A DNA stretch of 64,000 nucleotides from Hydrogenophilales bacterium 28-61-23. Lineage in GTDB: Bacteria > Pseudomonadota > Gammaproteobacteria > Burkholderiales > Thiobacillaceae. The stretch covers positions 124,001 through 188,000 of the forward strand of contig NCGJ01000003.1 of the NCBI GenBank assembly GCA_002281555.1, given 5' to 3'. How positions within the stretch are numbered: the first letter of the stretch is position 1; each line of letters begins with the position of its first letter. The notes below the pieces were generated by a model that had not been told where the DNA came from, did no database searches, and saw only the letters and a program-made list of their open reading frames with translations. Of this stretch, positions 3,121 through 20,336 are shown one piece after another. Made by a program: the position numbers and the translations under genes.

Positions 3121-4128
3121 ATGGCGAAACAATCGCATCCAATCGGATTGATCGGGGAATCCGAGGTTTTTCAGGACATGCTGGCGGCGATCGGCAAGAT
3201 CGCCGGTTACGACGCCACCGTACTCATCACCGGCGAAACCGGCAGCGGCAAGGAACTGGCCGCCCGCGCCATCCACTATCAGGGCAAGCGTAACGACAAG
3301 CCGTTCATCCCGGTCAATTGCGGCGCATTGCCCGACCATCTGATCGAGAACGAACTGTTCGGCCACAGCCGGGGCGCTTACACCGATGCCCGCGAGAATC
3401 AGACCGGACTCATCGCCCAGGCCGAGGGCGGCACCCTTTTTCTGGACGAGATCGACGCCCTCTCGCCCAAGGCCCAGGTCAGCCTGCTGCGTTTTCTGCA
3501 GGATGGGAAATACCGGCCGTTGGGCGGCAGCCGCCTCGAATTCGCCGATGTGCGCATCCTGGCAGCCAGCAACGCGAATCTGCGCGAGCTCGTCGACCTG
3601 GACCGATTCCGCGCCGACCTGCACTACCGCCTCAACGTCATGGAACTGGCGGTGCCGCCGCTACGCGCGCGCGGCGACGATGCCGTCCTGCTGGCGCGCC
3701 ACTTCATCGCCGAAGCCGCCTGCCGTTACAACATGACCCGGCTGGATCTGCATCCGGATACCTTGCCGTGGCTCGTCAGCCAGCCCTGGCCGGGCAATGT
3801 GCGCGAATTGCAGAACCGCATCCAGCGCGAATTTCTGATGTGCGACGGCCCCAACATCCTGATCCGCCAGCCGGTGCCGGAATCGGAGCGGCGCACAAAA
3901 AAGGATCGTCGCCAGTCTTGCGCCAGCGCCCTGCCCAACCCGCTCAATTTCAATGAAGCCAAGCAACTCACACTGCAGTCGTTCGAACGCAACCATCTGA
4001 TCCAGCTGATGCGGGAAAGCGCCGGCAACGTCTCGCAAGCCGCGCGCCTGGCCGGCAAGGAACGCCGCGCCCTGGGCAAGCTGCTGAAAAAATACTGCAT
4101 CGAACCGGACTGTTTCCGCGGCGCCTGA
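3121..4128 (+). CDS. Sigma-54-dependent transcriptional activator (AAA+ plus Fis-type HTH, no sensor domain)
   Basis: The 335-residue bacterial enhancer-binding protein begins almost directly with the AAA+ domain. Walker A is GETGSGKE (38-45), Walker B GGTLFLDEID (103-112), arginine-finger region FRADLHYRLNV (163-173), and sensor II GNVRELQN near 235. The C-terminus carries a Fis-type helix-turn-helix (NVSQAARLAGKERRALGKLL). The sigma-54 contact loop, GAFTGA in most members, reads GAYTDA (85-90). As in PspF, no receiver, PAS or GAF domain precedes the ATPase, so activity is probably set by expression level or a partner protein. It sits between the eCIS genes and a run of effector-like genes whose sigma-54 promoters share an upstream element, making it the obvious candidate regulator. 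The start is supported by an AGGAGGG ribosome binding site. Confidence 0.92.
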   Translation: MAKQSHPIGLIGESEVFQDMLAAIGKIAGYDATVLITGETGSGKELAARAIHYQGKRNDKPFIPVNCGALPDHLIENELFGHSRGAYTDARENQTGLIAQAEGGTLFLDEIDALSPKAQVSLLRFLQDGKYRPLGGSRLEFADVRILAASNANLRELVDLDRFRADLHYRLNVMELAVPPLRARGDDAVLLARHFIAEAACRYNMTRLDLHPDTLPWLVSQPWPGNVRELQNRIQREFLMCDGPNILIRQPVPESERRTKKDRRQSCASALPNPLNFNEAKQLTLQSFERNHLIQLMRESAGNVSQAARLAGKERRALGKLLKKYCIEPDCFRGA

Positions 4129-4150
4129 CGCGTGCCGACAGACTGCTAGT

Positions 4151-4166
4151 GGGTTCACTGCGACCC
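4151..4166 (+). promoter_or_regulatory. Putative activator binding site A (GGG-N8-GACCC), distal site of promoter P1
   Basis: Reads GGGTTCACTGCGACCC. Its centre is exactly 43 bp upstream of site B, the same spacing as the tandem pair upstream of promoter P3. The -24 GG of P1 lies 116 bp downstream. Confidence 0.6.
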
Positions 4167-4193
4167 GCTCACTGGCCATCCGGCCCTCGGGGT

Positions 4194-4209
4194 GGGGTAT
4201 GACAGACCC
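4194..4209 (+). promoter_or_regulatory. Putative activator binding site B (GGG-N8-GACCC), proximal site of promoter P1
   Basis: Reads GGGGTATGACAGACCC followed by ACC. Its centre is 73 bp upstream of the -24 GG of P1. Sites C and D, at the other two promoters, sit 74 bp upstream and carry the same GACCCACC end, which supports a common sigma-54 activator operator. Confidence 0.65.
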
Positions 4210-4272
4210 ACCATTTGCCTCCCCCGTTCTCTAAGCCCATGAATCGACAGCAAGTGATGCCTTGAATCGGCC

Positions 4273-4288
4273 TGGCATGCTCGTTGCG
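4273..4288 (+). promoter_or_regulatory. Sigma-54 (-24/-12) promoter P1
   Basis: TGGCATGCTCGTTGCG matches the sigma-54 consensus TGGCACG-N4-TTGCW with the required GG-N10-GC spacing. The expected transcription start is near 4300, some 20 bp before the ATG at 4321, and its ribosome binding site GAGGAGGGG follows directly. Confidence 0.8.
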
Positions 4289-4320
4289 TATGCATATGCA
4301 TCGCGGCGAGGAGGGGAGTC

Positions 4321-4548
4321 ATGCAGCCTCAGGATGAGCATCTCACGGAAGTTGTCGAAGCCATCCTGCGCTACCTGCATGGTCATCCCGATGCCGCCGA
4401 TACCGTCGATGGCATCGCCAAATGGTGGTTGCCGACAGATTGGTGCGTCGACGTCCGCACCGTGCTATCGGCCCTGTCCCGCCTGGAGGCGCAGGGCATC
4501 GTGCATCGGCGCATCAACGCCGATCGGCATGTTCTGTTTTCTCGTTGA
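4321..4548 (+). CDS. Small winged-helix-like protein (75 aa), first gene behind sigma-54 promoter P1
   Basis: The product MQPQDEHLTEVVEAILRYLH... has the pattern of a compact winged helix-turn-helix: helix (VVEAILRYLHGHP), a short connection with DTVDGIAKWWL, a recognition-like helix (VRTVLSALSRLEAQGIV) and a basic wing end (HRRINADRHVLF). The phrase LSRLEAQGIVHRR is what MarR/PadR-like wHTH domains show at the helix 3/wing junction. It has a strong ribosome binding site and sits 33 bp behind promoter P1, with two putative activator sites upstream. It could be a DNA-binding co-regulator or a feedback modulator of the sigma-54 regulon. No family assignment is certain. The longer overlapping frame starting at 4262 begins upstream of the predicted transcript and is rejected. 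Confidence 0.65.
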   Translation: MQPQDEHLTEVVEAILRYLHGHPDAADTVDGIAKWWLPTDWCVDVRTVLSALSRLEAQGIVHRRINADRHVLFSR

Positions 4549-4590
4549 CCGGAGGAAGTTTGACCGCCCGTCGGCTAAGCGCCGCTGACA

Positions 4591-4612
4591 GACCGGCCCG
4601 GAATGGCCGGTC
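4591..4612 (+). terminator. GC-rich hairpin after the small wHTH gene
   Basis: GACCGGCC and GGCCGGTC form a perfect 8-bp stem with a 6-nt loop, 43 bp after the stop at 4548. No T-run follows, so it is a weak rho-independent terminator candidate or simply a transcript 3'-end hairpin. Confidence 0.35.
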
Positions 4613-4641
4613 GGATCGCGCCCCGCGAAAACCAGGAATGC

Positions 4642-4657
4642 GGGTCACCTTTGACCC
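4642..4657 (+). promoter_or_regulatory. Putative activator binding site C (GGG-N8-GACCC) of promoter P2
   Basis: GGGTCACCTTTGACCC is a near-perfect palindrome (GGGTCA/TGACCC) followed by ACCC. Its centre lies 74 bp upstream of the -24 GG of P2. It gives the clearest view of the two half-sites. No second copy is found 43 bp further upstream at this promoter. Confidence 0.68.
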
Positions 4658-4721: not shown

Positions 4722-4737
4722 CGGCACGCGGCTTGCT
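4722..4737 (+). promoter_or_regulatory. Sigma-54 (-24/-12) promoter P2
   Basis: CGGCACGCGGCTTGCT fits GGCACG-N4-TTGCW with GG-N10-GC spacing. The start of transcription would be near 4749, giving a leader of about 90 nt to the protease ATG at 4840. The leader contains a 7-bp hairpin (CGCGCAT/ATGCGCG, 4765-4784). Confidence 0.82.
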
Positions 4738-5796: not shown

Positions 5797-7449
5797 ATGC
5801 ATAAACCCTTCGAAATCGGCCTGGTCATGGCCGGCGCCGTATCCGCCGGCGCCTATACCGGCGGCGTGATGGATTTCCTGATCCAGGCGCTGGACGCCTG
5901 GCAGAAAGCCAAGGACGCGGGCGAAGCCGATGCGCCGCGCCATGAAGTGCGCCTCAAGGTCATGGCCGGCACCTCCGCCGGCGGCATGACGGCGGGCATC
6001 GCCTGCGGCGCGCTGGGCTCGGACTTCGCCCCGGTGACCGACCCGTTCCAGCCCGACCCGGCCAACAAGCTGTTCGACAGCTGGGTCAAACGCATCGACA
6101 TCGCCATGCTGCTCGGGGAGGCCGATCTCGCCGACGAGAACCGGCCGGTGCGCTCCCTGCTCGATTCCAGCCCGCTGGACGCCATCGCCCGCGACGCCCT
6201 CGACTTCAAGCCCAGAGCCGAACCCCGCGCCTGGGTAAGCGAGCCGCTGCATGTGCTGACCACCGTTTCCAACCTGCGCGGCGTGCCCTACAACATTCCC
6301 TTCCGGGGCGACTATCGGGAAGGACATGAAATGTACGCCCACGCCGATTACGTGCATTTTCTGGTCAGCGTCGGCGGCGCGGCCACCGAAGCCAGCGCCC
6401 TGTCACTGGACTGGGCGAGGCAGACACGAATCGACAACTGGCGGCGACTGGAAAACGCCGCCCTGGCCACCGGCGCATTCCCGGTCGGCCTGGCGCCGCG
6501 CGCGCTGAAACTGGAACGCACGCTCTACGATCACCGCACCTGGTCGATACCCGCCCAGGGCTCGCCCGTTGGCGTTGGCGCGTGCAGCTTCATCCACACC
6601 CATCGCCCCATCCCCGCCCACTGGCCCGAATCGATGCGCCAGCATCCCGACTACGCCACGCTGTGCGTGGACGGGGGCGTCATGAACAACGAACCGTTCG
6701 ACCTGGCGCGCCGCATCATGCTCGACGGCGATTGCGCATGCCCGCGCGGAGCCGAAAACGCCACCCGCGCCATCGTCATGGTGGACCCCTTCCCCGGCGC
6801 GGATACCGACGTCGGCAAGTACGAAGCCAAGGACGACGTCATCAGCACCTTCATGTCCATGTTCACCGCCATGAAGAATCAGGCCCGCTTCAAGCCCGAA
6901 GACCTCGCCCTGGCCCAGGAGGACGACGTGTACAGCCGCTTCCTGATCGCGCCGACCCGCGACGACGAGCGCCATCCCATCGCCTGCGGCGCGCTGGGCG
7001 GTTTTTCTGGCTTCCTGTCGGAAGATTTCCGCCGCCACGACTTCATGCTTGGCCGCCGCAACTGCCAGGCCTTCCTGCGCAAGCACTTCGTCCTGTCCGC
7101 CAAACATCCGCTGTTCGCGAACTGGAGCGAAGAACAACGCAACCGCTTCGAAACCATCGAAGACGGCCAGGCCTTCCTGCCCATCATTCCCCTGCTCGAC
7201 ACGGCCGAGTCGGTCTGCGCCGTACCCGAATGGCCCCGCTACAGCGGCGCCCAACTCGACGTGCTGGGAGAAAAAATCGGAAATCGATACGACACCCTGA
7301 TGGACCGCTTCGCCCATCAATTCGCCAAAGACAACTGGCTGGCAAGGCAGGCGCTGAAACTATTCGCGAATCGGAAAAAGAACGATGCAGTTAATTGGGC
7401 ATGCAAACGAATTCAGACGGAATTCAAGGTATTCAAGTTGATGCGGTAA
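5797..7449 (+). CDS. Patatin-like phospholipase/acyl hydrolase (550 aa)
   Basis: This serine lipase of the patatin fold starts MHKPFEIGLVMAGAVSAGAY. The glycine-rich oxyanion loop is MAGAVSAGAYTGG (11-23), less canonical than GGGxRG. The nucleophile elbow is AGTSAGG with Ser60, and the second dyad residue is Asp292 in VDGGVMNNEP. The remaining 250 residues are a family-specific C-terminal region with no known domain to my eye. There is no signal peptide. It follows the papain-like protease after 42 bp with its own ribosome binding site and is probably in the P2 transcript. Phospholipases of this fold are frequent bacterial effectors that attack membranes. A metabolic phospholipase is the alternative, but co-location with protease and amidase genes beside an eCIS favours an effector or a companion enzyme. 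Confidence 0.87.
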   Translation: MHKPFEIGLVMAGAVSAGAYTGGVMDFLIQALDAWQKAKDAGEADAPRHEVRLKVMAGTSAGGMTAGIACGALGSDFAPVTDPFQPDPANKLFDSWVKRIDIAMLLGEADLADENRPVRSLLDSSPLDAIARDALDFKPRAEPRAWVSEPLHVLTTVSNLRGVPYNIPFRGDYREGHEMYAHADYVHFLVSVGGAATEASALSLDWARQTRIDNWRRLENAALATGAFPVGLAPRALKLERTLYDHRTWSIPAQGSPVGVGACSFIHTHRPIPAHWPESMRQHPDYATLCVDGGVMNNEPFDLARRIMLDGDCACPRGAENATRAIVMVDPFPGADTDVGKYEAKDDVISTFMSMFTAMKNQARFKPEDLALAQEDDVYSRFLIAPTRDDERHPIACGALGGFSGFLSEDFRRHDFMLGRRNCQAFLRKHFVLSAKHPLFANWSEEQRNRFETIEDGQAFLPIIPLLDTAESVCAVPEWPRYSGAQLDVLGEKIGNRYDTLMDRFAHQFAKDNWLARQALKLFANRKKNDAVNWACKRIQTEFKVFKLMR

Positions 7450-7501: not shown

Positions 7502-8002
7502 ATGGACAAACGAAAGTATCTACTGGATCAACTTCAACAGAAGATCAACGGCTTCAGGGATGACTCAAAGCAACACAAGAATCTATATCGAAATTTAAGG
7601 TATTCAGTGTTCGTATTAACCTCTATTTCAACCTTGCTCGCGGGTTTGGCGCTCAAGTTCCCTGAGGTGAGTTCAAGTATTAGTGTGGCCATTGTGCTTG
7701 TCTCGGCCGCCGTTGGAGTCGTCACCTCGATTGAAGGCATCAGAAAGCCGGCGGAACTCTGGATTCATGAACGCACAACCTATTACGCGCTGATGGATCT
7801 AAAAAGGGAGGTTGAATTCAAGCTTGACGAGAACAGCACCGTGGAGACGGTTGAGGAATATTTCTTCAAGATGCAGGAAATTCTGGGCGCGTCGGGAGAA
7901 AAATGGAATCGGAATATTGCTGGCGTAACGCTGAGCAACAATACCAAACCCGGCAATGCAGTGGACGCATCGCAAGCGGCGCATTCGATAATTAAAAATT
8001 AG
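7502..8002 (+). CDS. SLATT/DUF4231-like two-TM protein
   Basis: The 166-residue protein has a charged N-terminal helix (MDKRKYLLDQLQQKINGF), two closely spaced membrane helices (about 34-52 and 58-76) and a cytoplasmic helical tail with a WIHERTTYYALMDLKREVEF segment. This layout matches SLATT and DUF4231 proteins, small two-TM proteins that often accompany nucleotide-sensing conflict systems and have been proposed as pore-forming effectors. Base composition is lower in GC than in the flanking patatin and amylase genes, suggesting separate acquisition. It starts 52 bp after the patatin stop. Family membership is judged from topology and motif pattern only, and the function here is unknown. 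Membrane self-poisoning or cargo anchoring are both possible. Confidence 0.65.
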   Translation: MDKRKYLLDQLQQKINGFRDDSKQHKNLYRNLRYSVFVLTSISTLLAGLALKFPEVSSSISVAIVLVSAAVGVVTSIEGIRKPAELWIHERTTYYALMDLKREVEFKLDENSTVETVEEYFFKMQEILGASGEKWNRNIAGVTLSNNTKPGNAVDASQAAHSIIKN

Positions 8003-8065
8003 ACTTGGCGACAATAAAGATTTTAATTTTTAAATCATTCAACCAATAAACAAGGAGCAAAAACC

Positions 8066-8872
8066 ATGGCATTTGAAAACGTCGGTCTGGTTTGGACGCC
8101 CGAGTCGCTAACGCAATATCTGACCTCGATTGAAAAACCGAATTGGTGCAAGGCCATCACGCTGCACCACACTGCTGCGCCCTCGCTCGCCCAGCGGCCC
8201 AAAGGACTGCTTCTCCAGCATATCGAGAATCTGCGCCATTTTTACCAGGACGATAAGAAATGGAGCGCGGGGCCGCACCTTTTTGTCGATGACGACCAGA
8301 TATTCGGTATGTGCGATCTGCGTAGAAAAGGCGTGCATGCGGTCAGTTTCAACAGCATGGCCATTGGTATTGAGGTGCTGGGCGATTACGACTCGGAAGA
8401 CCCGCTCAGTGGCCGGGGGCTTGATTGTTGGAAAACCGCCTCCGCGACCACGCGTATTTTGCTCAATTGGCTTGGGCTTGCGGCAAACAAGGATACGGTT
8501 TTATTTCACCGGGACGATCCGACCACAAAGAAATCCTGCCCGGGCAATAAAGTCAAAAAGGATTGGCTGCTTGGCCTTATCGCCGCGCCAGCCTCGGCCA
8601 GAATTGCCGCAGGAAGCGAGAAACCCGATATAGGCATGGATTGGGCGAAATGGGATTACCGTGGCGAATGTTGGTGCGTTCCGGTACGGGAATTCCTGGT
8701 CGCAAAAGGAATTGCGTCCAAGACGGTGGTGGCCGAACTCAAATCCATCGGTGGATTGTTTTACTACGGCAATGAGCTGCTTGAAGGCGCCTACTATGTT
8801 GGCAAAAATTCCAAAATAAAGCCCAGCCAATGCACTTGGGCGCCGGCGCGGGAACTCATGGAGCTTTTATAG
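8066..8872 (+). CDS. N-acetylmuramoyl-L-alanine amidase (Amidase_2/PGRP fold)
   Basis: The 268-residue protein has a T7-lysozyme-like amidase fold. Zinc ligands can be placed at His34 (in ITLHHTAAPS), His148 (LFHRDD) and Cys158 (KKSCPGNKV), with Lys156 in the position of the T7 catalytic lysine. The middle motif NSMAIGIEVLGDYD is also typical. The enzyme should cut the bond between muramic acid and the stem peptide of peptidoglycan. The last 90 residues (from about 180) form an extra domain ending in CTWAPARELMELL, perhaps substrate- or partner-binding. No signal peptide is present, so reaching the cell wall would require lysis or a carrier; a peptidoglycan-cutting cargo would suit the neighbouring eCIS. 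A clear AAGGAGC ribosome binding site precedes the ATG. Confidence 0.85.
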   Translation: MAFENVGLVWTPESLTQYLTSIEKPNWCKAITLHHTAAPSLAQRPKGLLLQHIENLRHFYQDDKKWSAGPHLFVDDDQIFGMCDLRRKGVHAVSFNSMAIGIEVLGDYDSEDPLSGRGLDCWKTASATTRILLNWLGLAANKDTVLFHRDDPTTKKSCPGNKVKKDWLLGLIAAPASARIAAGSEKPDIGMDWAKWDYRGECWCVPVREFLVAKGIASKTVVAELKSIGGLFYYGNELLEGAYYVGKNSKIKPSQCTWAPARELMELL

Positions 8873-9029
8873 ATTTTATATAAAACAGTTTGGCAACATT
8901 CATTGCCTCAAAAATGGCCTGACTCAACACCCCGCGCATAGTTATTAGCCGAATTTTTAAATAACCAACCCAGAGCATGACCGCATTTCCATATAACCGG
9001 GGCCAAATTAAACAGGGAGGAATTTCAAC

Positions 9030-11012
9030 ATGCCATTTGCCAAACAAGCCCTCAGCCACCCGCGCCCGGCCAGCATCCGCCGCAATGTCGATCTGCCGCG
9101 CCGACAGCAATGCCACGCTTCGCCGGTGGACTGGCGCGACGAGGTTCTTTACTTCCTGCTGGTGGATCGTTTCAGCGACGCGGCCGAATCGACCCGGCCA
9201 TTGCTGGATCGCGCCCATCTCGCCGCCGGCCGGCCCGCATTGCCTGACGGCACGCCATGGCGCTGGGATCGCTGGGCCGAGTCCGGCGCCAGCCGCTGGC
9301 AGGGCGGCAGCCTGGCGGGCGTGACCTCCAAGCTCGACTATCTCAAGCACCTGGGCGTCACCACCTTGTGGCTGAGTCCCGTGTTCAAACAGCGCGGCCA
9401 CCGCGACGACTACCACGGCTATGGGGTGCAGGATTTCCTCGACGTTGACCCGCGCTTCGGCACGCGCGACGATCTGGTCGCGTTGGTCAAGGCGGCGCAC
9501 GCCAAAGGTCTGCGCGTCATCCTCGACATCATCTTCAATCATTCCGGGCCGAACTGGCTGTATCCGCACGATGCCCCCGGCGGCGCGGTACAGCCCCACT
9601 ACAGCGCCGACTGCTATCGGTTCGGCGCATGGCTGGACAGCAACGGCCAGGAGATCGGTTCCATCCAGGGCGCCGACGACGGCGTCTGGCCGACCGAGCT
9701 GCAAGATGCCGAGCGCTACACGCGCGCCGGCTGCGGCAGCCTGGGCGCGGGCGACATCGACGACGCCCAGGCCGAGCACAAACGGAGCGACTTCCTGATG
9801 TTGCGCGATTTCCGCCTCGCCGCTTCGCTGGACGATCTCGCCCGCTGCTTCAAATACTGGATCGCGCTGACCGACTGCGACGGTTTTCGCATCGACACCC
9901 TCAAGCATGTGTCGCTGGAAGAAGCGCGCAATTTCTGCGGCTCGATCAAGGAATTCGCCGCCAACCAGGGCAAGGAAAACTTCTTCCTGGTCGGCGAGAT
10001 CGCCGGCGGCGACTACGGCGAAGACCGCTATCTCGACGTCCTCGATCGCAACCTGAACGCGGCGCTGGACATTGGCGAGATGCGCCCCACCCTTACCGGC
10101 GTCGCCAAGGGGCTGCTGCATCCGGGCGTATTTTTCGGCGGCTTTGATGCCGGCCACGCCGTCATGGGCTCGCACCGCAATCTGGGCAACCGCCATGTTT
10201 CCATCCTCGACGACCACGATCACGTGTTCGGCCAGAAGCTGCGCTTTTCCAGCGAGGCCGCTTCCGAGCATCAGGTCGCCGCCGGCCTCGCTTTGCAGGC
10301 GTTCAGCCTCGGCATCCCCTGCGTCTACTACGGCACCGAACAGGCCCTGGCCGGGCCCGAGGCGGGCGAACGCAACTGGCTGCCCGATTGGGGCGGCTCC
10401 GACCGCTACCTGCGCGAGGCGATGTTCGGCCCGGCGCACCCACGCAAGAGCGGGCGCGCCGGGATGACGCCCGGCAGCGCGGGTCTCGACGCCAGCCTGC
10501 CCGGCTTCGGCCCGTTCGGCAGCGCCGGCCAGCACTGCTTCGACGAACACAGCGCCGCCTACCTGCGCATCGCCGCCCTGCTCGCGCTGCGCAAACAGAT
10601 TCCCGCCCTGCGCCACGGCCGCCAGTACCCGCGCCCGATTTCTTTCCTCGGCCTCCCGTTCGCGCTGTACGGCCCGGGCGAAATCATCGCCTGGTCGCGC
10701 ATCCTCGACGACGAGGAACTCGTCTGCATCGTCAACGGCCACGGCGCCGCCGCGCGTGGCGCCGATGTGCTGGTGGACGCGATCCTGAATCCGCCCGGCG
10801 CTTCGATGCAGGTCGTGCTCAACAGCGCGCAAGCTGGCAAACCCGCTGGCAGCCCGGCGAAATACAGCGGCCCGCACCCGGTCGCTTCCAGCCTGCCGGT
10901 GCGGCGCACGGCGCAGGGCATCGCCTATGTCGAAATCCGGGACTTGCCGCCTTCCGAGGTGCTGGTGCTGGCGAACCGGGCGAAAGCGGACGGCGGCGCG
11001 GTCTTGCCTTGA
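9030..11012 (+). CDS. GH13 alpha-amylase-family glycoside hydrolase
   Basis: The 660-residue protein carries the GH13 catalytic barrel: region I DIIFNH (166-171), region II DGFRIDTLKH with nucleophile Asp289, region III FFLVGEI with general acid Glu323, and region IV ILDDHD with His396/Asp397. The entry motif DEVLYFLLVDRFSD is usual for alpha-amylases and trehalose- or maltose-forming relatives. A C-terminal beta domain follows from about 560. No signal peptide is seen; the basic N-terminus (PRPASIRRNV) is not hydrophobic, so the enzyme is probably intracellular. A GGAGG ribosome binding site supports the start. The large membrane protein begins 20 bp downstream, suggesting an operon. Whether it serves glycogen metabolism or works with the eCIS-linked genes cannot be decided here. 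Confidence 0.9.
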   Translation: MPFAKQALSHPRPASIRRNVDLPRRQQCHASPVDWRDEVLYFLLVDRFSDAAESTRPLLDRAHLAAGRPALPDGTPWRWDRWAESGASRWQGGSLAGVTSKLDYLKHLGVTTLWLSPVFKQRGHRDDYHGYGVQDFLDVDPRFGTRDDLVALVKAAHAKGLRVILDIIFNHSGPNWLYPHDAPGGAVQPHYSADCYRFGAWLDSNGQEIGSIQGADDGVWPTELQDAERYTRAGCGSLGAGDIDDAQAEHKRSDFLMLRDFRLAASLDDLARCFKYWIALTDCDGFRIDTLKHVSLEEARNFCGSIKEFAANQGKENFFLVGEIAGGDYGEDRYLDVLDRNLNAALDIGEMRPTLTGVAKGLLHPGVFFGGFDAGHAVMGSHRNLGNRHVSILDDHDHVFGQKLRFSSEAASEHQVAAGLALQAFSLGIPCVYYGTEQALAGPEAGERNWLPDWGGSDRYLREAMFGPAHPRKSGRAGMTPGSAGLDASLPGFGPFGSAGQHCFDEHSAAYLRIAALLALRKQIPALRHGRQYPRPISFLGLPFALYGPGEIIAWSRILDDEELVCIVNGHGAAARGADVLVDAILNPPGASMQVVLNSAQAGKPAGSPAKYSGPHPVASSLPVRRTAQGIAYVEIRDLPPSEVLVLANRAKADGGAVLP

Positions 11013-11032
11013 GATGACCTGGAACCCATGCC

Positions 11033-14000
11033 ATGACGCAACCCGAACAAGGCGCTTCCGGCAGTCCGTTGCCCAGCATCATTCTGGTGCTGATCATGAG
11101 TGTGGGCGCTTTCTGGGCGCAGAAGGTGCCGTTGCCGAGTTCTCGCCCGGCTGAAACCCAGACCGCGCCGGAGGGCGTCGCGGCGCAGCAGAATATCGAT
11201 GCGCGGCTATGGCAGGACCCGTTCGATGTGCTTAAAAAGACCGCACCCAAGCCCGATCTGACCATCGAGGTCGCCAACAAAACGAGCCTGAAAGCGCTGG
11301 TGAAAACCCCGCCGCCACCGGCACCCACCCCAGCGCAGTCTGTCTTGTGCCCGGCCACGGGCGTCGAGGAGACGGTGCTGACGATGGCGGTCATGGTCAA
11401 CGGCGCGCCCTATGCGGAAGCCGCCGAATCGCGCCGCCGCACCCGCTATGCCGTGTTGTCCGGGCTCGGGCGCGGCAAATACGTTCCGGAGGATCGCGAA
11501 CATCTCGGCGCCTTACCGGTCACCATACAGGCGCCGTCCGGCCAGGCGAAACCCATGGTCGTTCCATTTGAATGGCTACAGCAAGCGGATGCCGCCGAAA
11601 AACGCGTCCTGCTGCTGTGGGTCAATGAAACAAAAATTCGCGCCCAGCCACTGCATCAAATCCAGAAAATCATGGAACAGGCCTGCATCAGCGCGAAAAA
11701 TCGCGAGGTCAAAACGGTGGTCATCGGCCCGGCCAGCTCGGAAACCTTGCGCGCCATGATGGTCGAGGTCAAACCTTTGACCAACTCGGAAATATCTAGC
11801 GGCTCAGGTGGCGCGTGCTTCCCGCAATTTCTGGAAGGCTTGCGAATTTATTCGCCCAGCGCGACGGAGCCGGACGAATTTCTGCTGCAAAGCCTGGAAT
11901 CGACCAAAGCAGCGGCCGCTCAAACCGCCGCCTATTGTCTCGACCCGCATCAGACGATCAAAACTTCGTTGATGGACTGGGTTCCCGGCTTGGAATTCCA
12001 TCGCACCATCGCCACCGACTGCGCGCTGGTGGTCGCCTTGACCGAGGAACTGCGTATCCGCGGTGTGCAGCCCGACGACGGCATCGTCCTGATTTCCGAA
12101 TGGGATACGTCCTATGGCCGCGCCCTGCCCAAGGCCTTCGATGAAGTGCTCACCGCTAAACGGGAGCATGCAATCGCGCCCGGCAAGGAGCCCCTGTGGC
12201 ACTACAGCTATCTCAGAGGCCTCGACGGCATCCTGCCGGGGGAAGCCGCCGACAAGAAATCGGACGACAGCAAGAAGCCGCGCGAAAACGAATACCAGAG
12301 CATCGAGTCGGCCTTCGGCAATCATCAAAAAGACTATCTGCGCCGGATCGCCGCGCGCGTCGCCGATCTTGACCAAAGCCTGAAGGCGGCGGGCAAGCGC
12401 GCAGGCGTCAAAGCCATCGGCATCCTGGGCAGCGATGTCTACGACAAGCTGCTCATCCTGCGCGCGCTGCGCCCGCGCTTCCCCGAAGTCATCTTCTTCA
12501 CCACCGACCTGGATGCCCGCCTGCTGCATGCCGAGGAATGGAGTTCGGCGCGCAATCTGGTCGTGGCGTCCAGCTATGGACTGCGCCTGAGCGGTTGTCT
12601 GCAACGCGAGATTCCGCCCTTCCGCGACAGCTATCAAACCACCTATTTCCTGAGCGTGCTGACGGCGCTGATGGAACCCGAGCCCCGAAAAAAAGCCATG
12701 GCGAGCGTGGATCTCTGGAGTTGGCGTCCGCGCATGTTTGAAATCGGGCGCAGCCAGGCGGTGGATTTGAGCGTCACCAGCCGGGACGACGATGGCTGCA
12801 CTCTGGCCGACTTCGCGTCGCCCCATCCTTACGTCAAACGGCCACTCCCGCCACCCGTGAAGATGATCGCCGCCCTGATCGGCTTGCTGCTGCTGGGCGT
12901 CTGGTTTCTGCATCGCAAGCAGGTCGCCGCTTTTCTTGGCGCGGCGCGGCAAGACCTGCGCGCCGCCTGGCGCCAACCAGGCGGTTACAGCCAAACGCAT
13001 AGCCAAGCGCATTGCCTGGGTTGCGTGCCCGCCGCCGGGCCTGACCTCTGGTACCGGAAAACACTACGCCTGCTCACCTGCAAATGGGTGGTGGCCATGG
13101 CCGGCGCCCTGCTGTTGCTGGCCTGGGTCGGCTGGGAGATGCGGCGCGTCTGGGTGGAAATCTTCATTACCGGATCGGCGGGCGGCGGCGAACCTTTCTC
13201 CTGGGTCGAGGGTGTGAGTAGCTGGCCCAGCGTGTTGCTGCGCGTTGTCACCGGCCTGCTGTCGATCTATTTGCTGCTGCGCGGCATTCGGCGTTTGCGC
13301 CAGAACGACCGGAAGCTGACCGAGCGCTTCTTTCACGACCACACCACCACCGTCCTGACACGCATCCGGCCCAGCCTGGGCGTTCGCCTCTGGCACGCGC
13401 TCAAACGCGGCCGGGTTTGCCGTTGTCTGCTGCCAGGCCGGCTCTGGCGCTGGTTCAAGGGCGAACAGCCGGAGCGGCGCAGCGCCATATTCATCTGGCG
13501 CGATGCCGTGCAACCCCGTTCCGGCGCGGCGCTATTCGGCCGCATGCTGCTAGGCGTGTTGGTGCTCATGACTTTCGCCGGGTTACTTGCCAGCCTGCTT
13601 CCGGGCGAGCCGCCCAACCAACCCTTCCGAGGCGACATCGCCCAGTCCGTGCATCGGCACACGCTGGTGTTCGCGCTGCTGAGTTTCGTTTTCCTTCTGG
13701 TATTCGTCGTCGACAGCATCCGCCGCACCTGCCGCCTGGCAACCGGCTTGAGCGGTGCCACGCTGTGGCCGGAAGACGCCGAACGGGAATTTGGCTGCGC
13801 CGGCTCGCGGCACTGCGACGACTGGCTCGATATCCAGCTCATCGCCGCCCGCACCGAGGTCGTCGGCGGCTTCATCTACTATCCCTTCGTCATCCTCAGC
13901 CTGCTGATCCTGGCGCGCAGCTCGGTGTTCGACAACTGGCAGATTCCGGTTAATTTGGGCGTCATCTTCATCCTTTATCTGCTGATCGCACTGGCGGCCG

Positions 14001-14263
14001 CGATGAGCTTGCGCAACGCGGCGGAACGCGCCCGTCGCCATGCCATCGCCAATATCAGCCGCGACATCATCGCGGCACTCGGGCAGGACGCGGCCAAAGC
14101 CAAGGTCGATCAAATGAAGCTGATGAAAGAAGCCATCCTGGCTGAACATCGCGGCGCTTTCTCCTCCTTCCTGCGCCAGCCCTGGATCAAGGCGGTACTG
14201 TTGCCGCTGGGCAGTTTCAGCGGCATCCAGTTGCTCGAATACTTGTCCTTGATCGATTTATGA
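11033..14263 (+). CDS. Large polytopic membrane protein with soluble ligand-binding-like domain (1,076 aa)
   Basis: The first membrane helix lies at about 15-31 (IILVLIMSVGAFWAQ). A soluble domain of roughly 570 residues follows, then at least seven further helices between about 605 and the C-terminus (for example MIAALIGLLLLGVWFL, VVAMAGALLLLAWVGW, VFILYLLIALAAAM-like segments). In the soluble part, residues around 455-500 (KAIGILGSDVYDKLLILRAL, then EVIFFTTDLDARLL) resemble the Rossmann-like halves of type I periplasmic ligand-binding proteins, so a sensing role is conceivable. The gene starts 20 bp after the amylase and overlaps the next reading frame by ATGA, so the three probably form one transcript. 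I do not recognise the family, and the topology of the long loop (periplasmic by simple hydrophobicity) is inference. Confidence 0.75.
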   Translation: MTQPEQGASGSPLPSIILVLIMSVGAFWAQKVPLPSSRPAETQTAPEGVAAQQNIDARLWQDPFDVLKKTAPKPDLTIEVANKTSLKALVKTPPPPAPTPAQSVLCPATGVEETVLTMAVMVNGAPYAEAAESRRRTRYAVLSGLGRGKYVPEDREHLGALPVTIQAPSGQAKPMVVPFEWLQQADAAEKRVLLLWVNETKIRAQPLHQIQKIMEQACISAKNREVKTVVIGPASSETLRAMMVEVKPLTNSEISSGSGGACFPQFLEGLRIYSPSATEPDEFLLQSLESTKAAAAQTAAYCLDPHQTIKTSLMDWVPGLEFHRTIATDCALVVALTEELRIRGVQPDDGIVLISEWDTSYGRALPKAFDEVLTAKREHAIAPGKEPLWHYSYLRGLDGILPGEAADKKSDDSKKPRENEYQSIESAFGNHQKDYLRRIAARVADLDQSLKAAGKRAGVKAIGILGSDVYDKLLILRALRPRFPEVIFFTTDLDARLLHAEEWSSARNLVVASSYGLRLSGCLQREIPPFRDSYQTTYFLSVLTALMEPEPRKKAMASVDLWSWRPRMFEIGRSQAVDLSVTSRDDDGCTLADFASPHPYVKRPLPPPVKMIAALIGLLLLGVWFLHRKQVAAFLGAARQDLRAAWRQPGGYSQTHSQAHCLGCVPAAGPDLWYRKTLRLLTCKWVVAMAGALLLLAWVGWEMRRVWVEIFITGSAGGGEPFSWVEGVSSWPSVLLRVVTGLLSIYLLLRGIRRLRQNDRKLTERFFHDHTTTVLTRIRPSLGVRLWHALKRGRVCRCLLPGRLWRWFKGEQPERRSAIFIWRDAVQPRSGAALFGRMLLGVLVLMTFAGLLASLLPGEPPNQPFRGDIAQSVHRHTLVFALLSFVFLLVFVVDSIRRTCRLATGLSGATLWPEDAEREFGCAGSRHCDDWLDIQLIAARTEVVGGFIYYPFVILSLLILARSSVFDNWQIPVNLGVIFILYLLIALAAAMSLRNAAERARRHAIANISRDIIAALGQDAAKAKVDQMKLMKEAILAEHRGAFSSFLRQPWIKAVLLPLGSFSGIQLLEYLSLIDL

Positions 14264-15223: not shown

Positions 15224-15230
15224 ACTTTGC

Positions 15231-16843: not shown

Positions 16844-16880
16844 TGAATTCAAAAATATCATGCATATAACAAGGCTAATT

Positions 16881-16970: not shown

Positions 16971-16989
16971 TCATTTAGGAGCATTGAGC

Positions 16990-17760
16990 ATGAAGGTATT
17001 TCTCAGTTGGTCCGGTCAGCGTAGCAAAGAAGTTGCCAATTTGCTTAGCGACTGGCTTTGCTGTGTGATTCAGGCTTCTCGGCCTTGGATTTCTACGAGA
17101 GACCTTGATAGAGGCTCACTCTGGTTCGGTGAAATCAATGATCAATTGAAAGATACAACGGTGGGCATTATTTGCCTTACGCAAGAAAATAAGACACGCC
17201 CGTGGATATTGTTTGAAGCTGGCGCTCTTGCGAAAGGTCTTTCCACATCGCGTGTCTGCACTTTGCTTGTCGATTTGGAGCCAAAAGATATTGAAGATCC
17301 ACTAGCTCAGTTCAATCACACGTTCCCCACTCGTGAAAGTGTGCTTGGGTTGGTTAAGACACTCAACGGCACTCTTGTAAGCAACAGCTTGGATAACAGA
17401 ATTCTTGAGCAAGTGTTTGCCACTTATTGGCCACAGTTCGAGAGCAGCTTCGCAGAGATTATTGCAACTACCGAAGCGCAGCCACCGTCAAAACCACGGC
17501 CAAAAGAAGACGTACTTGGAGAGATTCTGGAGAACACCAGAATGCTGAACTCAAGAATTCGTCGGCTTGAAAATGACGTGGAGCGGTCACGTTTGCGCGA
17601 AATGGATATGCCGATGAGCATGATGCACGAAGAAGCAATCACTATGGCAAAAGCAGGCATGCCGTTTGAGATGATTCTGGATAGGTTTGGTAATCGTCTT
17701 CCGAAGGGTTTGCTGAAAGATATTGTGTCGAACATTGAGCGTGGAAAGTCTAGCGAATGA
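16990..17760 (+). CDS. TIR-like domain protein in an integron cassette
   Basis: The start is placed at ATG 16990 because AGGAG lies 8 bp upstream; an upstream TTG at 16984 has too short a spacing. Residues 1-125 fit a TIR/TIR_2-like fold: beta-A KVFLSWSG, a box-2-like region SRPWISTRDLDRGSLWFGEI, beta-D VGIICLTQEN, and RPWILFEAGALAK, where the Glu is in the place of the NADase catalytic glutamate. A linker rich in Pro/Lys and a helical coiled segment follow (TRMLNSRIRRLENDVERSRL), then a C-terminal helical end (GMPFEMILDRFGNRLPKGLL). TIR proteins of this kind are often NAD-consuming immune effectors. Flanking attC sites mark it as a cassette. NADase activity and an anti-phage role are inference. 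Confidence 0.8.
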   Translation: MKVFLSWSGQRSKEVANLLSDWLCCVIQASRPWISTRDLDRGSLWFGEINDQLKDTTVGIICLTQENKTRPWILFEAGALAKGLSTSRVCTLLVDLEPKDIEDPLAQFNHTFPTRESVLGLVKTLNGTLVSNSLDNRILEQVFATYWPQFESSFAEIIATTEAQPPSKPRPKEDVLGEILENTRMLNSRIRRLENDVERSRLREMDMPMSMMHEEAITMAKAGMPFEMILDRFGNRLPKGLLKDIVSNIERGKSSE

Positions 17761-17882
17761 ATCTAACTCTGCATTCGAGCGGGACTGGCCGTATGCGTTC
17801 TCTTTACGGCCTGTGGATTTTTGAACTTCCGGGGCTCCGGTCACGTTTCGTGGCGGCCAGCCCCTCAATTTGAACGTTGAGG
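17761..17882 (+). repeat. attC-like integron recombination site 3
   Basis: ATCTAAC directly follows the TIR-gene stop. The 3' end GAACGTTGAGG (17872-17882) deviates from GTTRRRY in the last base. Inner arms GGGACTGGCC and GGCCAGCCCC pair, giving a 120-bp palindrome, long but within the known attC range. Confidence 0.62.
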
Positions 17883-18044
17883 CTGTAGAAAAACCCGATT
17901 TTTAAAAACAGCCACTGAAATGACAACAAATCGACCGCTCAAAATAGCCTGTATTCAACGATCTCGGGTCGGGGAAGGGGTAAGGCACCCTCGGAATCTG
18001 GTTAATTCGGTCCCTCAACGGGTTCTTCTACAGCGTCGTTAGGT
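17873..18044 (+). repeat. attC-like / paired repeat element 4
   Basis: Left arm AACGTTGAGGCTGTAGAAAA (17873-17892) is nearly the reverse complement of GGTTCTTCTACAGCGTCGTT (18021-18040), and the right end carries the attC-type core GTTAGGT (18038-18044). The right arm recurs at 19523-19548 with core GTTGGGC. The roughly 130 bp between the arms hold no gene. Confidence 0.5.
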
Positions 18045-18071
18045 ATCCACGCTTATGGGAAGCAGTGTCAA

Positions 18072-18992
18072 ATGAAAACAATATGGAGTTCACTGAGTTG
18101 TTTTGTCAGTGCACTCTTATTGTGCACATTCTCCATTGTGTTGGCCTCATGCGGAATGATGAAAAAGACCGAAGTGGCGTCCGCGCCTGCTTCTGTGGAA
18201 ATGCGAGCACCCGTTCCTATGGCTATGCCTTCACCTATGGCTATGCCTTCACCTATTGCTATGCCTGCGCCTATGGCTATGCCTGCACCTGTGGCTATGC
18301 CTGCACCTGTGGCTATGCCTGCACCTGTGGCTATGCCTGCACCTGTGGCTATACCTGCACCTGTGGCTATGCCTGCACCTGTGGCTATACCTGCACCTGT
18401 ACATGCAGCACCCTCGAAGTCAGCAGGCAAGGCAACGGCAGCTGGAGAGTATAAGTTTGAAAAAGTCAAAGCCGAGTTGGCTGCCACTCCAATAATTACA
18501 ACACCTGGACCACCAGGTGATTTGAGAGTTTGGATTGGTGATATTAATCATGAAGCGAACTTCCCTTCTGAGCTGAATAGTGCTTCAGCGATAATCTCCA
18601 CATCTGTTAAACCCAATACAGTATTAGTTATACCGAACGCACCTGCCTTTAATGTTGAACCACAGCGCAAATGCCAACAATTCGACCCGTCTGGTACAAC
18701 AGTTAATTTCCAGTTAACGCCAAAGTTTGAACGGAACGACACCTATCTAGTAGGAGCCAGTATAGAAATTTTTGGTAGTGATAATTGCCAGGGAGTTTCC
18801 AATCCTAAAGCAGCAAAAGACATTTATGTAAAAGTTGCGGTAAAAATACCTCCCGACAATATTTGGAAACTGTTGCGGGAAAACATTGAGAAGCTGTTGA
18901 CAGGCGTATTTACCATAATTGTTGGTTTTATACTTTTCATGGCGCGAAGACTTCTAAAGAAAGTTTTCGGTTTTGAGGATAAAAACGAATAA
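18072..18992 (+). CDS. Lipoprotein with PVAMPA hexapeptide repeats and C-terminal TM helix
   Basis: The signal peptide MKTIWSSLSCFVSALLLCTF... ends in a lipobox-like LASC, so Cys is probably lipidated. A proline-rich stretch of ten hexapeptides (consensus PVAMPA) follows, encoded by 18-bp tandem repeats, then a globular domain of about 150 residues (GDLRVWIGDINHEANFP onward) and a C-terminal membrane helix near 278-296 (LLTGVFTIIVGFILFMARR) with a basic tail. The middle domain (strands around FEKVKAELAAT and VKVAVKIPPDN) resembles the ligand-exposed domains of envelope stress or effector-associated proteins, but no family is recognised. The Pro-rich spacer may carry the domain across the periplasm. 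Composition is AT-rich and it lies inside the integron-like array. Start chosen at 18072; a shorter out-of-frame ORF reading through the repeat is an artefact. Confidence 0.75.
   Translation: MKTIWSSLSCFVSALLLCTFSIVLASCGMMKKTEVASAPASVEMRAPVPMAMPSPMAMPSPIAMPAPMAMPAPVAMPAPVAMPAPVAMPAPVAIPAPVAMPAPVAIPAPVHAAPSKSAGKATAAGEYKFEKVKAELAATPIITTPGPPGDLRVWIGDINHEANFPSELNSASAIISTSVKPNTVLVIPNAPAFNVEPQRKCQQFDPSGTTVNFQLTPKFERNDTYLVGASIEIFGSDNCQGVSNPKAAKDIYVKVAVKIPPDNIWKLLRENIEKLLTGVFTIIVGFILFMARRLLKKVFGFEDKNE
18216..18395 (+). repeat. Ten tandem 18-bp repeats inside lipoprotein gene
   Basis: Units read CCTGTGGCTATGCCTGCA with few substitutions and encode Pro-Val/Met-Ala-Met-Pro-Ala/Ser. The central units are identical, indicating recent slippage. 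Because 18 is a multiple of 3, copy-number change keeps the frame. Confidence 0.92.
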
Positions 18993-19191
18993 CAAAGGGC
19001 TCAAATCTTGCAATCGCGCTTACAACCTCTCCTGAGAAACACCCTCCAAGTAATTGATTCAAAATGAGTCATTCAAGCGGGTTGTTCGTTGGACACGAAT
19101 TTCATACCGAGTTTTTCGGCGCGAACGGACAAGTTGTGCAAGACCCGCTGGCGATATCTTTCCTCGAAACATTCCTGGCCTTGGTCGGTGT

Positions 19192-19522
19192 ATTCCGCAA
19201 CCCAACTTCACCACCCTGGCCGCCTTCGTCTCCGAACTGGGCGACCTGGCCGCCAAGTTGTTTGCCCAGGTGCTGACGGTGTGCGACCGGCAAGGCCTGA
19301 TCGGCCGTGAAATGTTCGCCATCGACGGCGTCAAACTGCCTTCCAACGCCAGCAAGGCCAAGTCCGGCACTCGCGCCGATTACCAGCGTCAGGCCGAGAA
19401 GATGGAGACGGCGGCGAAGGCGTCTGGCTACACCGGGGTGGCGGCGGTGGATGCAAAGATGCAGAACGTCGTCGACGCGCAAGTCCATGGCACCGGCAGC
19501 GGGAGATTGGCCGGTGCGGAAT
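19192..19522 (+). pseudogene. IS1182-family transposase remnant, internally deleted
   Basis: The readable stretch begins around PQPNFTTLAAFVSELGDL and includes DRQGLIGREMFAIDGVKLPS and KAKSGTRADYQRQAEKMETA, the N-terminal core of IS1182-type transposases. It then jumps directly to SGYTGVAAVDAKMQNVVDAQ, which in intact members lies many residues later, so an internal segment is missing. The upstream part is out of frame and the C-terminal catalytic region is absent. No terminal inverted repeats were found. The fragment sits between the lipoprotein gene and an attC-like end. It is a decayed insertion and encodes no working enzyme. Confidence 0.75.
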
Positions 19523-19548
19523 GGGGTTTTTCTACAGCGTCGTTGGGC
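19523..19548 (+). repeat. attC-type 3' end repeat
   Basis: GGGGTTTTTCTACAGCGTCG followed by TTGGGC repeats the right arm of element 4 and ends in GTTGGGC, a perfect GTTRRRY core. It could mark the end of a cassette holding the lipoprotein gene and IS relic, and the start of the toxin-antitoxin cassette. Confidence 0.5.
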
Positions 19549-19582
19549 ATTGACAGGCATCTGACAGCGCTCGCACAGCCAC

Positions 19583-19610
19583 TTGACTGGCGTACGTAAT
19601 GACGTACCAT
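19583..19610 (+). promoter_or_regulatory. Promoter and palindromic operator of yefM-yoeB
   Basis: TTGACT (19583-19588) and TACCAT (19605-19610) form a sigma-70-type promoter with 16-bp spacing. The palindrome GTACGT-AATG-ACGTAC (19592-19607) fills the spacer and is a plausible autoregulatory operator; YefM operators are known to carry short TGTACA-like palindromes. Confidence 0.5.
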
Positions 19611-19635
19611 TTTGGCTTCTTTGAAGGAACCCGAA

Positions 19636-19878
19636 ATGAACACACTTACCGCCAGTGAAGCTCGCGCAAATCTGTACCGGCTCATTGATCAAACAGTCGA
19701 GTCTCATGAGCCAATCATCATTTCCGGAAAACGCAACAGTGCCGTGCTGCTATCGGCTGAAGATTGGAACGCGATTCAAGAAACCCTATACCTGCTGGCC
19801 GTGCCTGGCATGCGCGAGTCTATCAAGGCCGGTATGGCTGAGCCTCTCGCAAAAAGCTCGAAGGCGCTTAAGTGGTGA
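19636..19878 (+). CDS. yefM: Type II antitoxin, YefM/Phd family
   Basis: The 80-residue antitoxin starts MNTLTASEARANLYRLIDQT and has the Phd/YefM N-terminal DNA-binding fold, with VESHEPIIISGKRNSAVLLSAEDW as the signature and a C-terminal, presumably disordered toxin-neutralising tail (ESIKAGMAEPLAKSSKALKW). The ATG at 19636 is preferred because GAAGGAA precedes it; an in-frame TTG at 19612 is not supported. It binds the YoeB ribonuclease and represses its own operon, probably at the palindrome upstream. The toxin start overlaps its end by a few bases, giving coupled translation. It lies at the right flank of the integron-like array, a location where toxin-antitoxin cassettes often stabilise the array. 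Confidence 0.9.
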   Translation: MNTLTASEARANLYRLIDQTVESHEPIIISGKRNSAVLLSAEDWNAIQETLYLLAVPGMRESIKAGMAEPLAKSSKALKW

Positions 19879-20138
19879 GTTGGGAAGTTGTTTATGCCAA
19901 GCAAGCAATGAAGGACGCAAAGAAGCTTGCTGCAAGTGGCCTTAAACCAAAGGCACAAGAACTGCTCGCGGTTCTTGCCAACGACCCATTTCAAAATCCG
20001 CCCCCCTTCGAGAAGTTGGTCGGTGATCTTGCCGGCGCATACTCTCGCCGCATCAATATTCAGCACCGCATTGTGTACGAGGTCTTTACCAAAGAAAAAA
20101 CGGTTCGTGTCCTACGTATGTGGACACACTATGAGTGA
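19872..20138 (+). CDS. yoeB: Type II toxin YoeB (ribosome-dependent mRNA interferase)
   Basis: The 88-residue toxin has the RelE/YoeB fold. Catalytic positions known from E. coli YoeB can be assigned: Glu47 in PPPFEKLVGDL, Arg66 in SRRINIQHRIVYEV, and the terminal His86-Tyr87 in MWTHYE. Translation starts at GTG 19872 or GTG 19875, both overlapping the antitoxin stop; the second would bring residue numbers in line with E. coli YoeB, the first has a better spaced GAAGG box. The toxin cuts mRNA at the ribosomal A site when YefM is degraded. It appears intact. Its cassette character is suggested by the attC-type end upstream, but no attC is recognisable immediately after the gene. Confidence 0.92.
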   Translation: MVSWEVVYAKQAMKDAKKLAASGLKPKAQELLAVLANDPFQNPPPFEKLVGDLAGAYSRRINIQHRIVYEVFTKEKTVRVLRMWTHYE

Positions 20139-20197
20139 GCAGGCGCGCTTGCAAGCGCAATCGGCGCTTGCGCAATGAGGCTGGCCGTCCGCCGGCC

Positions 20198-20213
20198 GGG
20201 TCGCTCCAGACCC
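20198..20213 (+). promoter_or_regulatory. Putative activator binding site E (GGG-N8-GACCC), distal site of promoter P3
   Basis: GGGTCGCTCCAGACCC followed by ACCCC. Its centre is 43 bp upstream of site D, repeating exactly the A-B spacing at promoter P1. Confidence 0.65.
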
Positions 20214-20240
20214 ACCCCGGGCCCCGAACCGCAGCCGCAT

Positions 20241-20256
20241 GGGTTCGAGTTGACCC
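20241..20256 (+). promoter_or_regulatory. Putative activator binding site D (GGG-N8-GACCC), proximal site of promoter P3
   Basis: GGGTTCGAGTTGACCC followed by ACCC. Its centre is 74 bp upstream of the -24 GG of promoter P3, the same distance as at P2. Confidence 0.68.
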
Positions 20257-20320
20257 ACCCGGCAAAGCCTTGAACGCGGCAAACCGCTGAAAACAAAGGC
20301 GCCGCCCGCCAGCCGGCATG

Positions 20321-20336
20321 TGGCACGTTGTTTGCG
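20321..20336 (+). promoter_or_regulatory. Sigma-54 (-24/-12) promoter P3
   Basis: TGGCACGTTGTTTGCG is a near-ideal -24/-12 element (TGGCACG-N4-TTGC). Transcription should begin near 20347. This leaves a 394-nt leader to the patatin start at 20741, part of which may encode a 60-residue peptide (20471-20653). Confidence 0.85.

Follow-up and report, generated by a model that had tools for sequence, protein, structure and literature searches.

A very probable sigma-54 regulon of hydrolytic enzymes with a conserved dyad code, encoded beside an extracellular contractile injection system

What does a single sigma-54 activator gene control when it stands back to back with an operon for an extracellular contractile injection system (eCIS)? 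The question arises in a stretch of 64,000 nucleotides from Hydrogenophilales bacterium 28-61-23 (contig NCGJ01000003.1, positions 124,001 to 188,000), hereafter the window. A sequence-only reading of this window had seen one activator gene, three promoters and five copies of GGG-N8-GACCC at fixed spacing, and had proposed a dedicated switch for injection-system cargo or companion enzymes. Following up this proposal in the whole genome and in its relatives, we consider it very probable that the locus holds a compact sigma-54 regulon, made up of the activator, dyad elements, a bend of the integration host factor (IHF) type, the promoters P1 to P3, and target genes for hydrolytic enzymes and a small winged helix-turn-helix (wHTH) protein.

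All three promoters lie on the plus strand and match the -24/-12 consensus, as had been claimed: P1 at 4273..4287 (TGGCATG-CTCG-TTGC, TGGCATGCTCGTTGC), P2 at 4722..4736 (CGGCACG-CGGC-TTGC, CGGCACGCGGCTTGC) and P3 at 20321..20335 (TGGCACG-TTGT-TTGC, TGGCACGTTGTTTGC), with scores of 8.5 to 8.8 on our own scale. The five 16-bp elements, on the same strand, are found where they had been placed. Measured from the element centre to the first G of the -24 GG, P1 is preceded by a proximal element B at 72.5 bp (4194..4209, GGGGTATGACAGACCC) and a distal element A at 115.5 bp (4151..4166, GGGTTCACTGCGACCC), P2 by the single element C at 73.5 bp (4642..4657, GGGTCACCTTTGACCC), and P3 by a proximal element E at 73.5 bp (20241..20256, GGGTTCGAGTTGACCC) and a distal element D at 116.5 bp (20198..20213, GGGTCGCTCCAGACCC). 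The proximal values agree with the roughly 73, 74 and 74 bp first given; the distal copy lies exactly 43 bp above the proximal one at both P1 and P3, and four of the five copies share the continuation GACCCACC, again as described. The letters between the elements differ among the three promoters, while elements and spacing stay. Two of the arrays also contain a sequence resembling the IHF consensus, WATCAANNNNTTR: one at P1 (4232..4244, plus strand, TAAGCCCATGAAT), which matches 8 of 9 consensus positions, and one at P3 (20280..20292, plus strand, CAAACCGCTGAAA), both centred 36 bp from the -24 GG. P3 has a further match, which fits 8 of 9 positions and is centred 53 bp away.

The genome, labelled G000 in our set, was scanned in full (3,513,663 bases in 30 contigs; stated completeness 98%), each scan being repeated backwards as a control. 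The compound pattern GGGN8GACCC-N{52,80}-YGGCN7TTGC has three matches in these 3.51 Mb, namely P1, P2 and P3, all on the same strand, and none backwards. The long element pattern GGGKYN6GACCCACC, which four of the five window copies match, has four matches genome-wide, all in the window arrays, and again none backwards. The geometry is thus beyond chance, as had been argued. A looser promoter scan was dropped as too permissive and replaced by others. The genome also carries rpoN, on another contig than the window.

The gene at 3121..4128 (plus strand) encodes a sigma-54 enhancer-binding protein (bEBP) of 335 amino acids. Pfam recognizes an AAA+ domain (Sigma54_activat PF00158, 2.9e-62) beginning at residue 10, a lid (AAA_lid_14, PF25601, 3.4e-16) and a C-terminal Fis-type helix-turn-helix (HTH_8, 8e-07, residues 285-325); no N-terminal regulatory or sensor domain was found ahead of the AAA+ domain. 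The statement that this is the only enhancer-binding protein in the window is borne out by tblastn, which at E values up to 1 returned the gene itself, one match of 22 residues (E 0.78) and no second homologue. PADLOC assigned the activator to no defence system: its RtcR-PspF matches span the AAA-HTH part only, without CARF.

Together with 8 other bEBPs as outgroup, 24 close activator proteins form one fully supported clade (100/100). All 24 carry a sigma-54 contact loop of the form GA[FY]TDA, a form seen in none of the 8 outgroup rows, whose loops are GAFTGA, GTFTGA or GSFTGA. In the window protein the loop is GAYTDA at residue 85: compared with GAFTGA, the F and the second G are changed and the T is kept. 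The same loop position is changed from glycine to aspartate in NorR G266D, which is fully constitutive (PMC2941729); here the change is natural and clade-wide, whereas the constitutive effect is known for NorR only. The substitution is not unique to this clade, since GAFTDA or GAYTDA also occurs in Desulfovibrio vulgaris DVU2106 and DVU2275 and in VfmH. Because the activator combines a constitutive-type loop with the lack of a sensor domain, it is probably controlled through its own expression or synthesis, or by a partner, for instance the wHTH protein described below.

At a cut-off of E <= 1e-75, such activators were detected in 14 genomes among 150 from the order and in 5 among 398 from the phylum, two of the latter (G000 and G015) being already in the order set. 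Among named genome contigs, 33 activator loci were detected, six of them at 79-84% identity (L022-L027) and belonging, by their record titles, to betaproteobacterial metagenome-assembled genomes (MAGs). One such MAG, G533, has two close activator genes on two contigs (L025, L027), either paralogues or two binned strains.

The control element itself had been read as GGG-N8-GACCC. This form is present at the window sites, but it did not stand as the general motif: in relatives the right half-site frequently lacks the G and reads ACCC or CCCC, and we widened the pattern to GGGT-N8-ACCC. The element as a whole is a dyad, TGGGTC-N6-GACCCA, with core GGGT-N8-ACCC. Over 48 sites, the left half retains GGG and the right half CCC (47 to 48 of them), with a preference for T..A at the outer and C/G at the inner positions; since the sites were chosen by dyad likeness, this sharpness is partly by construction. 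Such a dyad would be the form expected for a dimer of a Fis-type HTH protein.

With the strict pattern GGGTN8ACCC-N{58,70}-HGGCAYRN4TTGC, scanned over the 150 genomes of the order, we found six matches, all in activator genomes (none in the 136 others, none backwards) and all within 17 kb of an activator gene. The relaxed pattern, which uses the proximal dyad only, gave 22 matches in 12 activator genomes against 2 in the control, both of these in G088. Thirty-one promoters were examined and 25 with a usable dyad kept for the counts. Six were dropped: L059, L061, L065, L066 and L069 had no proximal dyad with 3 or fewer mismatches, and L096 had one at 73.5 bp with 3 mismatches, two of them in the core. 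As L125 was kept despite a dyad quality like that of L096, the cut is not sharp. The proximal dyad lies at 72.5-76.5 bp in 23 of the 25 (partly by selection), the exceptions being the Pvc16 promoter of G088, at 84.5 bp or one helical turn further, and the sheath promoter of G532, with dyads at 61.5 and 152.5 bp. A distal dyad at 113.5-117.5 bp is present in 17 of the 25.

The distal site allowed an out-of-sample test. The relaxed scan had yielded eight new places, one of which (C97:33180 in G045) looks like chance by its letters; the other seven (L120-L126) were fetched, and each of them has a distal dyad at 113.5-116.5 bp. From the background dyad rate of 2.7e-4 per base, about 0.14% would be expected at each of the seven places, three of which represent one kind of target shared by sister genomes. 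A third component is shared as well: in 19 of the 25 promoters an IHF-like sequence, YAANNNNTTGAWW, situated between the proximal dyad and the -24 element, has its centre 35-37 bp from the GG, while shuffled spacers gave a mean of 0.67 and a maximum of 5 in 2000 rounds. IHF may bind at these sites. Taken together, the two genome scans, the 150-genome scan and the distal-site test strongly support the dedicated sigma-54 switch that had been proposed.

As predicted, the visible targets in this window are a wHTH gene behind P1, papain and patatin genes behind P2, and a membrane-patatin gene behind P3. The first of these (4321..4548, plus strand) encodes a protein of 75 amino acids, the usual partner of the activator. 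It matches no model in Pfam or NCBIfam, gives weak matches only in a sequence search against solved structures (best E 0.017), and contains a conserved ADT-EGI--WW stretch. We call it winged-helix-like because an AlphaFold model from a four-row alignment has three helices, at low confidence (pLDDT 65.7), and two of three relatives tried show sub-threshold similarity to MarR_2. A sequence model of this family (A2) finds it in 11 of the 150 genomes, all of them among the 14 with an activator and none among the 136 others (Fisher p 2e-14); because the model was built from 14 rows, and 11 of its 12 matches are training rows with only that in G140 new, its value rests on the 139 genomes without a match. 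The activator genomes without the wHTH gene are G015, G092 and G129. The gene comes first behind 8 of the 25 dyad promoters, and its product is a candidate for feedback, or for relaying the signal to genes without a dyad, such as the eCIS genes of the window. In L022 (5838-9443) and L027 (1593-5237), the wHTH gene is directly followed by a gene for a protein of about 1200 amino acids with a KAP NTPase domain and YCF48/BNR-like repeats.

The first gene after P2 (4840..5754, plus strand) encodes a papain-family cysteine protease of 304 amino acids (Peptidase_C1 5.5e-14) in which the Cys, His and Asn motifs are present (GSCT, GHAI, NSWG). It is followed by a patatin-like phospholipase of 550 amino acids (5797..7449, plus strand; Patatin 2.6e-11) with GTSAG and DGG motifs. 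The first long gene after P3 (20741..23464, plus strand) encodes a membrane patatin of 907 amino acids (Patatin 1.5e-07) with hydrophobic segments. A relative of the latter in G530 (L122), 73% identical over 890 amino acids, is encoded second in line after a promoter built in the same way, on a different contig from the activator. Elsewhere, dyad promoters precede genes for papain-like proteases (G530, G534, G088), M10/M12-type metalloproteases (G530, G531, G533), a reprolysin-like protein (G531) and, in G530, a secreted protein with a haloperoxidase-like one after it; targets in L022, L025 and L027 have no Pfam match. Since relatives' dyad promoters precede such like enzymes, the P2 and P3 targets appear to be typical members of the regulon.

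The same-strand genes after the patatin (7502..14263), for a SLATT membrane protein, an Amidase_2 protein, an alpha-amylase-domain protein and a 1076-amino acid protein with hydrophobic segments, may belong to the P2 transcript. The SLATT gene lies between patatin and amidase (7502-8002); SLATT domains are known from defence loci. The alpha-amylase-domain protein (9030-11012) strongly matches the PADLOC 'GlgB' model (1e-128). Some of the papain and metalloprotease targets in relatives (L122 8104-10113, L126 2726-4816, L120 2098-3207) are without an evident signal peptide and have, by eye, lysine-rich low-complexity stretches near the N-terminus, which are candidate loading signals. N-terminal signals have been reported for payloads of Photorhabdus virulence cassettes (PVC).

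Is the injection system itself part of this regulon? The eCIS operon of the window lies on the minus strand; it begins at 2788 with a Pvc16-type gene (2204..2788, Pvc16_N 2.2e-30) and continues past the edge of the window (more eCIS genes are seen in locus L005). It is divergent from the activator gene, with the two starts 332 bp apart, and comprises genes for gp19-type tubes, gp25, a base V spike, baseplate J, CIS_TMP, Pvc16 and eCIS_core. The operon belongs to the CIS_TMP lineage, unlike the eCIS lineages that carry dyads. Its Pvc16 protein resembles those of the second eCIS of G015, of G069 and of G112 (30-33%) and has no match at 1e-6 in stretches of other eCIS lineages. No dyad promoter occurs in the stretches read of these three resembling systems, and G069 and G112 have no activator match. 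CIS_TMP (PF19268) was dropped as a general eCIS marker, as it marks one lineage only (7 of 150 genomes), and the tube gene PF06841 was used in its place.

Across the order, nine of the 14 genomes with an activator have the tube gene, compared with 17 of the 136 others (p 4e-5), and all nine tube genes lie within 30 kb of the activator on the same contig. Clear dyads with a -24/-12 promoter precede the eCIS operon in 6 of the 12 eCIS loci examined in activator genomes: before Pvc16 in G088 and G533, before the sheath gene in G532 and G015, before a wHTH gene and then the sheath gene in G023, and before a wHTH gene, a 136-amino acid protein and then the sheath in G030. Two of these promoters are unlinked to an activator gene, that of G533 (L093) lying on another contig and that of G532 (L094) at 1.3 Mb. 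The loci without clear dyads are that of the window, the second eCIS of G015 (L102), and those of G005 and G075, which have a sigma-54-like promoter and no dyad; G120 has a promoter with one weak dyad at 73.5 bp, and the contig of G140, also among the twelve, ends at the wHTH gene. G015 thus has two eCIS loci, the CIS_TMP one (L102) without a dyad promoter and the other (L097) with one.

A link to the type VI secretion system (T6SS) is seen in five activators, each with a fused VipA-VipB gene no more than about 4 kb away. A clear dyad precedes one of these five loci: in G150, outside the class of the window, a perfect dyad stands before the wHTH and VipA-VipB genes. The other four have no clear dyad. 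Beside activators of the clade, fused sheath genes are found in L067 (11537-14074), L069 (7126-9015) and L070 (10914-13199), with relatives in L099 and L100. The sheath protein VipB (PF05943) has no match in G000 and is present in 11 of 22 activator genomes searched. Sites before eCIS, T6SS and enzyme genes are thus seen in relatives, but none before the eCIS of the window.

Several observations weigh against such a regulon, or against its generality. Upstream of the window eCIS operon there is no dyad with fewer than 4 mismatches in 12 positions and no good -24/-12 promoter: three GG-N10-GC sites score 5.1 to 7.0, well below P1 to P3. P2 has a single dyad, its distal copy being absent, and no IHF-like site (best match 5 of 9 positions), and P3 sits 404 bp ahead of the start of its patatin gene. 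Strict matches occur in only 4 of the 14 activator genomes; G129, of the same genus and with an activator 70% identical, has no compound match, and G532 none with the relaxed pattern. The five of 31 promoters without a proximal dyad of 3 or fewer mismatches all precede wHTH genes, and L096 has a weak dyad, so that the code is clear in only part of the clade. Finally, the 25 dyad promoters are related, partly representing the same target in sister genomes, and their counts are not independent.

The elements, their geometry, exclusivity and conservation, and the unlinked sites are there to be read in the DNA; from them we infer binding, a role of IHF, activation and a biological role along the following lines. 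Activator dimers would bind the dyads TGGGTC-N6-GACCCA about 73 and 116 bp above the -24 GG, distances of roughly seven and eleven helical turns. With about four turns between them, the two dyads would face the same side of the DNA, which may favour assembly of the AAA+ ring, and an IHF-type bend at about -36 (P1, P3) would bring the ring to the sigma-54 polymerase, where ATP hydrolysis would open the promoter. The products would be the small wHTH protein, the papain-like protease with its patatin, and the membrane patatin. Where an injection machine is under its control, the regulon would coordinate the hydrolytic enzymes with that machine, because in relatives a like regulator and code also precede eCIS or T6SS operons.

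Could the arrays have arisen without selection on activator sites? GG and GC-rich half-sites are common in a GC-rich genome, but the compound, long and strict patterns have no backwards match and the relaxed pattern has 2 against 22, so we reject an artefact of chance or composition as practically negligible. Recent copying of one promoter segment would account for three similar arrays within 16 kb; with differing inter-element sequence around conserved elements and spacing, and with the same array before unrelated genes in other genomes, this explanation is rejected too, as very improbable. It is also improbable that the dyad serves as the binding site of a protein other than the bEBP, be it the small wHTH protein or some different regulator. 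Such binding would fit the presence of an activator in all 11 wHTH genomes and the faint MarR_2 similarity of the wHTH relatives. However, bEBPs classically bind to dyads that stand in helical register above the -24/-12 element, the wHTH gene is itself a target to judge from its place behind dyad promoters, and the activators of genomes with clear dyads have similar HTH domains.

A weightier alternative, which we nevertheless regard as rather unlikely, is that the regulon concerns hydrolytic enzymes, for lysis or predation, and not injection, the eCIS being coincidental here and an occasional recruit elsewhere. In its favour are the siteless eCIS of the window and its CIS_TMP relatives in G069 and G112; the dyads of G530 and G531, genomes without a tube or VipB match, and of G534, without a tube match; and the seven fetched new places, six of which start with a peptidase-family gene and the seventh with that of the secreted protein followed by the haloperoxidase-like one. 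The enzymes would thus not need an injection machine, unless the MAGs G530, G531 and G534 are incomplete there; G531, a small genome of 2.2 Mb, may be incomplete. On the other side stand the co-occurrence of activator and tube gene far above expectation, on one contig in 9 of 9 cases, the clear dyads before half of the eCIS loci and one T6SS, and the five activators close to VipA-VipB genes. We put forward tentatively, as a distinct possibility, that sensorless GA[FY]TDA activators, usually paired with a wHTH protein, act across Pseudomonadota as a portable master switch of contractile injection machinery: a single code of dyad, dyad, IHF site and promoter would serve the enzymes and whichever machine is connected to it, eCIS or T6SS, and the machine could be lost or replaced while the enzyme regulon stays, as may have happened here, where the siteless eCIS next to the switch is of a different lineage. 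In this genome, the regulon is best described as a putative injection-linked switch of which the enzyme arm is visible and the machine arm is not. The proposed link to injection systems is supported at the level of relatives, not of the neighbouring operon, and the enzymes are candidates for injection-system cargo.

Among known systems, close parallels are VasH of V. cholerae and Sfa2 of P. aeruginosa. Activators of the VasH/Sfa type have an N-terminal regulatory domain ahead of the AAA+ domain. The window activator differs in having no such domain, in its GA[FY]TDA loop and in its paired wHTH protein; moreover, relatives' targets include eCIS as well as T6SS, and the window genome has no VipB match. 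VasH and Sfa2 are sigma-54 activators of T6SS, whose control in this manner is well known, and the likeness is that one bEBP ties scattered accessory loci to the control of a contractile injection machine (PMC8855297). An Sfa2 site is reported 2132 bp upstream in the same paper, in contrast to the short dyads in fixed register near the promoter found here. PspF and HrpR-HrpS resemble the activator in being bEBPs without an N-terminal domain; PspF and HrpS consist of AAA+ plus HTH only and need control in trans. The activator is far below the NCBIfam cut-offs for a PspF equivalog (TIGR02974, 228 versus 443.55 bits; NF008622, 192.5 versus 529), and its targets are different. As for eCIS, a large survey names GerE/LuxR-type, BTAD and RfaH-like regulators (PMC8213781), which share with our activator a gene adjoining the eCIS locus; none of them is a sigma-54 activator, and the word 'sigma' is absent from the main text of that survey. 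Among the literature matches listed, none reports sigma-54 control of an eCIS; one of them (PMC10599522) concerns Geobacter biofilms and, in its matching passages, does not join the two subjects.

Some neighbouring sequence deserves mention. Between the two parts of the regulon, the region 14700-20140, where the sequence-only reading had placed a putative integron-like insertion, has a weak coding signal; by eye, the letters at 19054-19599 resemble a transposase piece, and those at 19875-20139 (plus strand) a RelE/ParE-type toxin. Beyond the membrane patatin, a single open reading frame of 7817 amino acids occupies 30774-54227 (minus strand), beside genes at 23477-30287 (minus strand) with HlyD, SecA-type, PqqD/M50-like and GAF-HlyD domains. 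The arrangement suggests a giant exported protein accompanied by dedicated export genes.

How eCIS are switched on is poorly known: for clusters without conserved regulatory genes, regulation is described as unclear in a 2023 review (PMC10598620). Here, a cis-code and a candidate activator are directly testable. As the code predicts unlinked genes that go with the machine, it may offer a new means of finding companion or cargo proteins. For the mechanism of enhancer-binding proteins, too, it is of interest that an entire natural clade carries the loop substitution by which NorR becomes constitutive.

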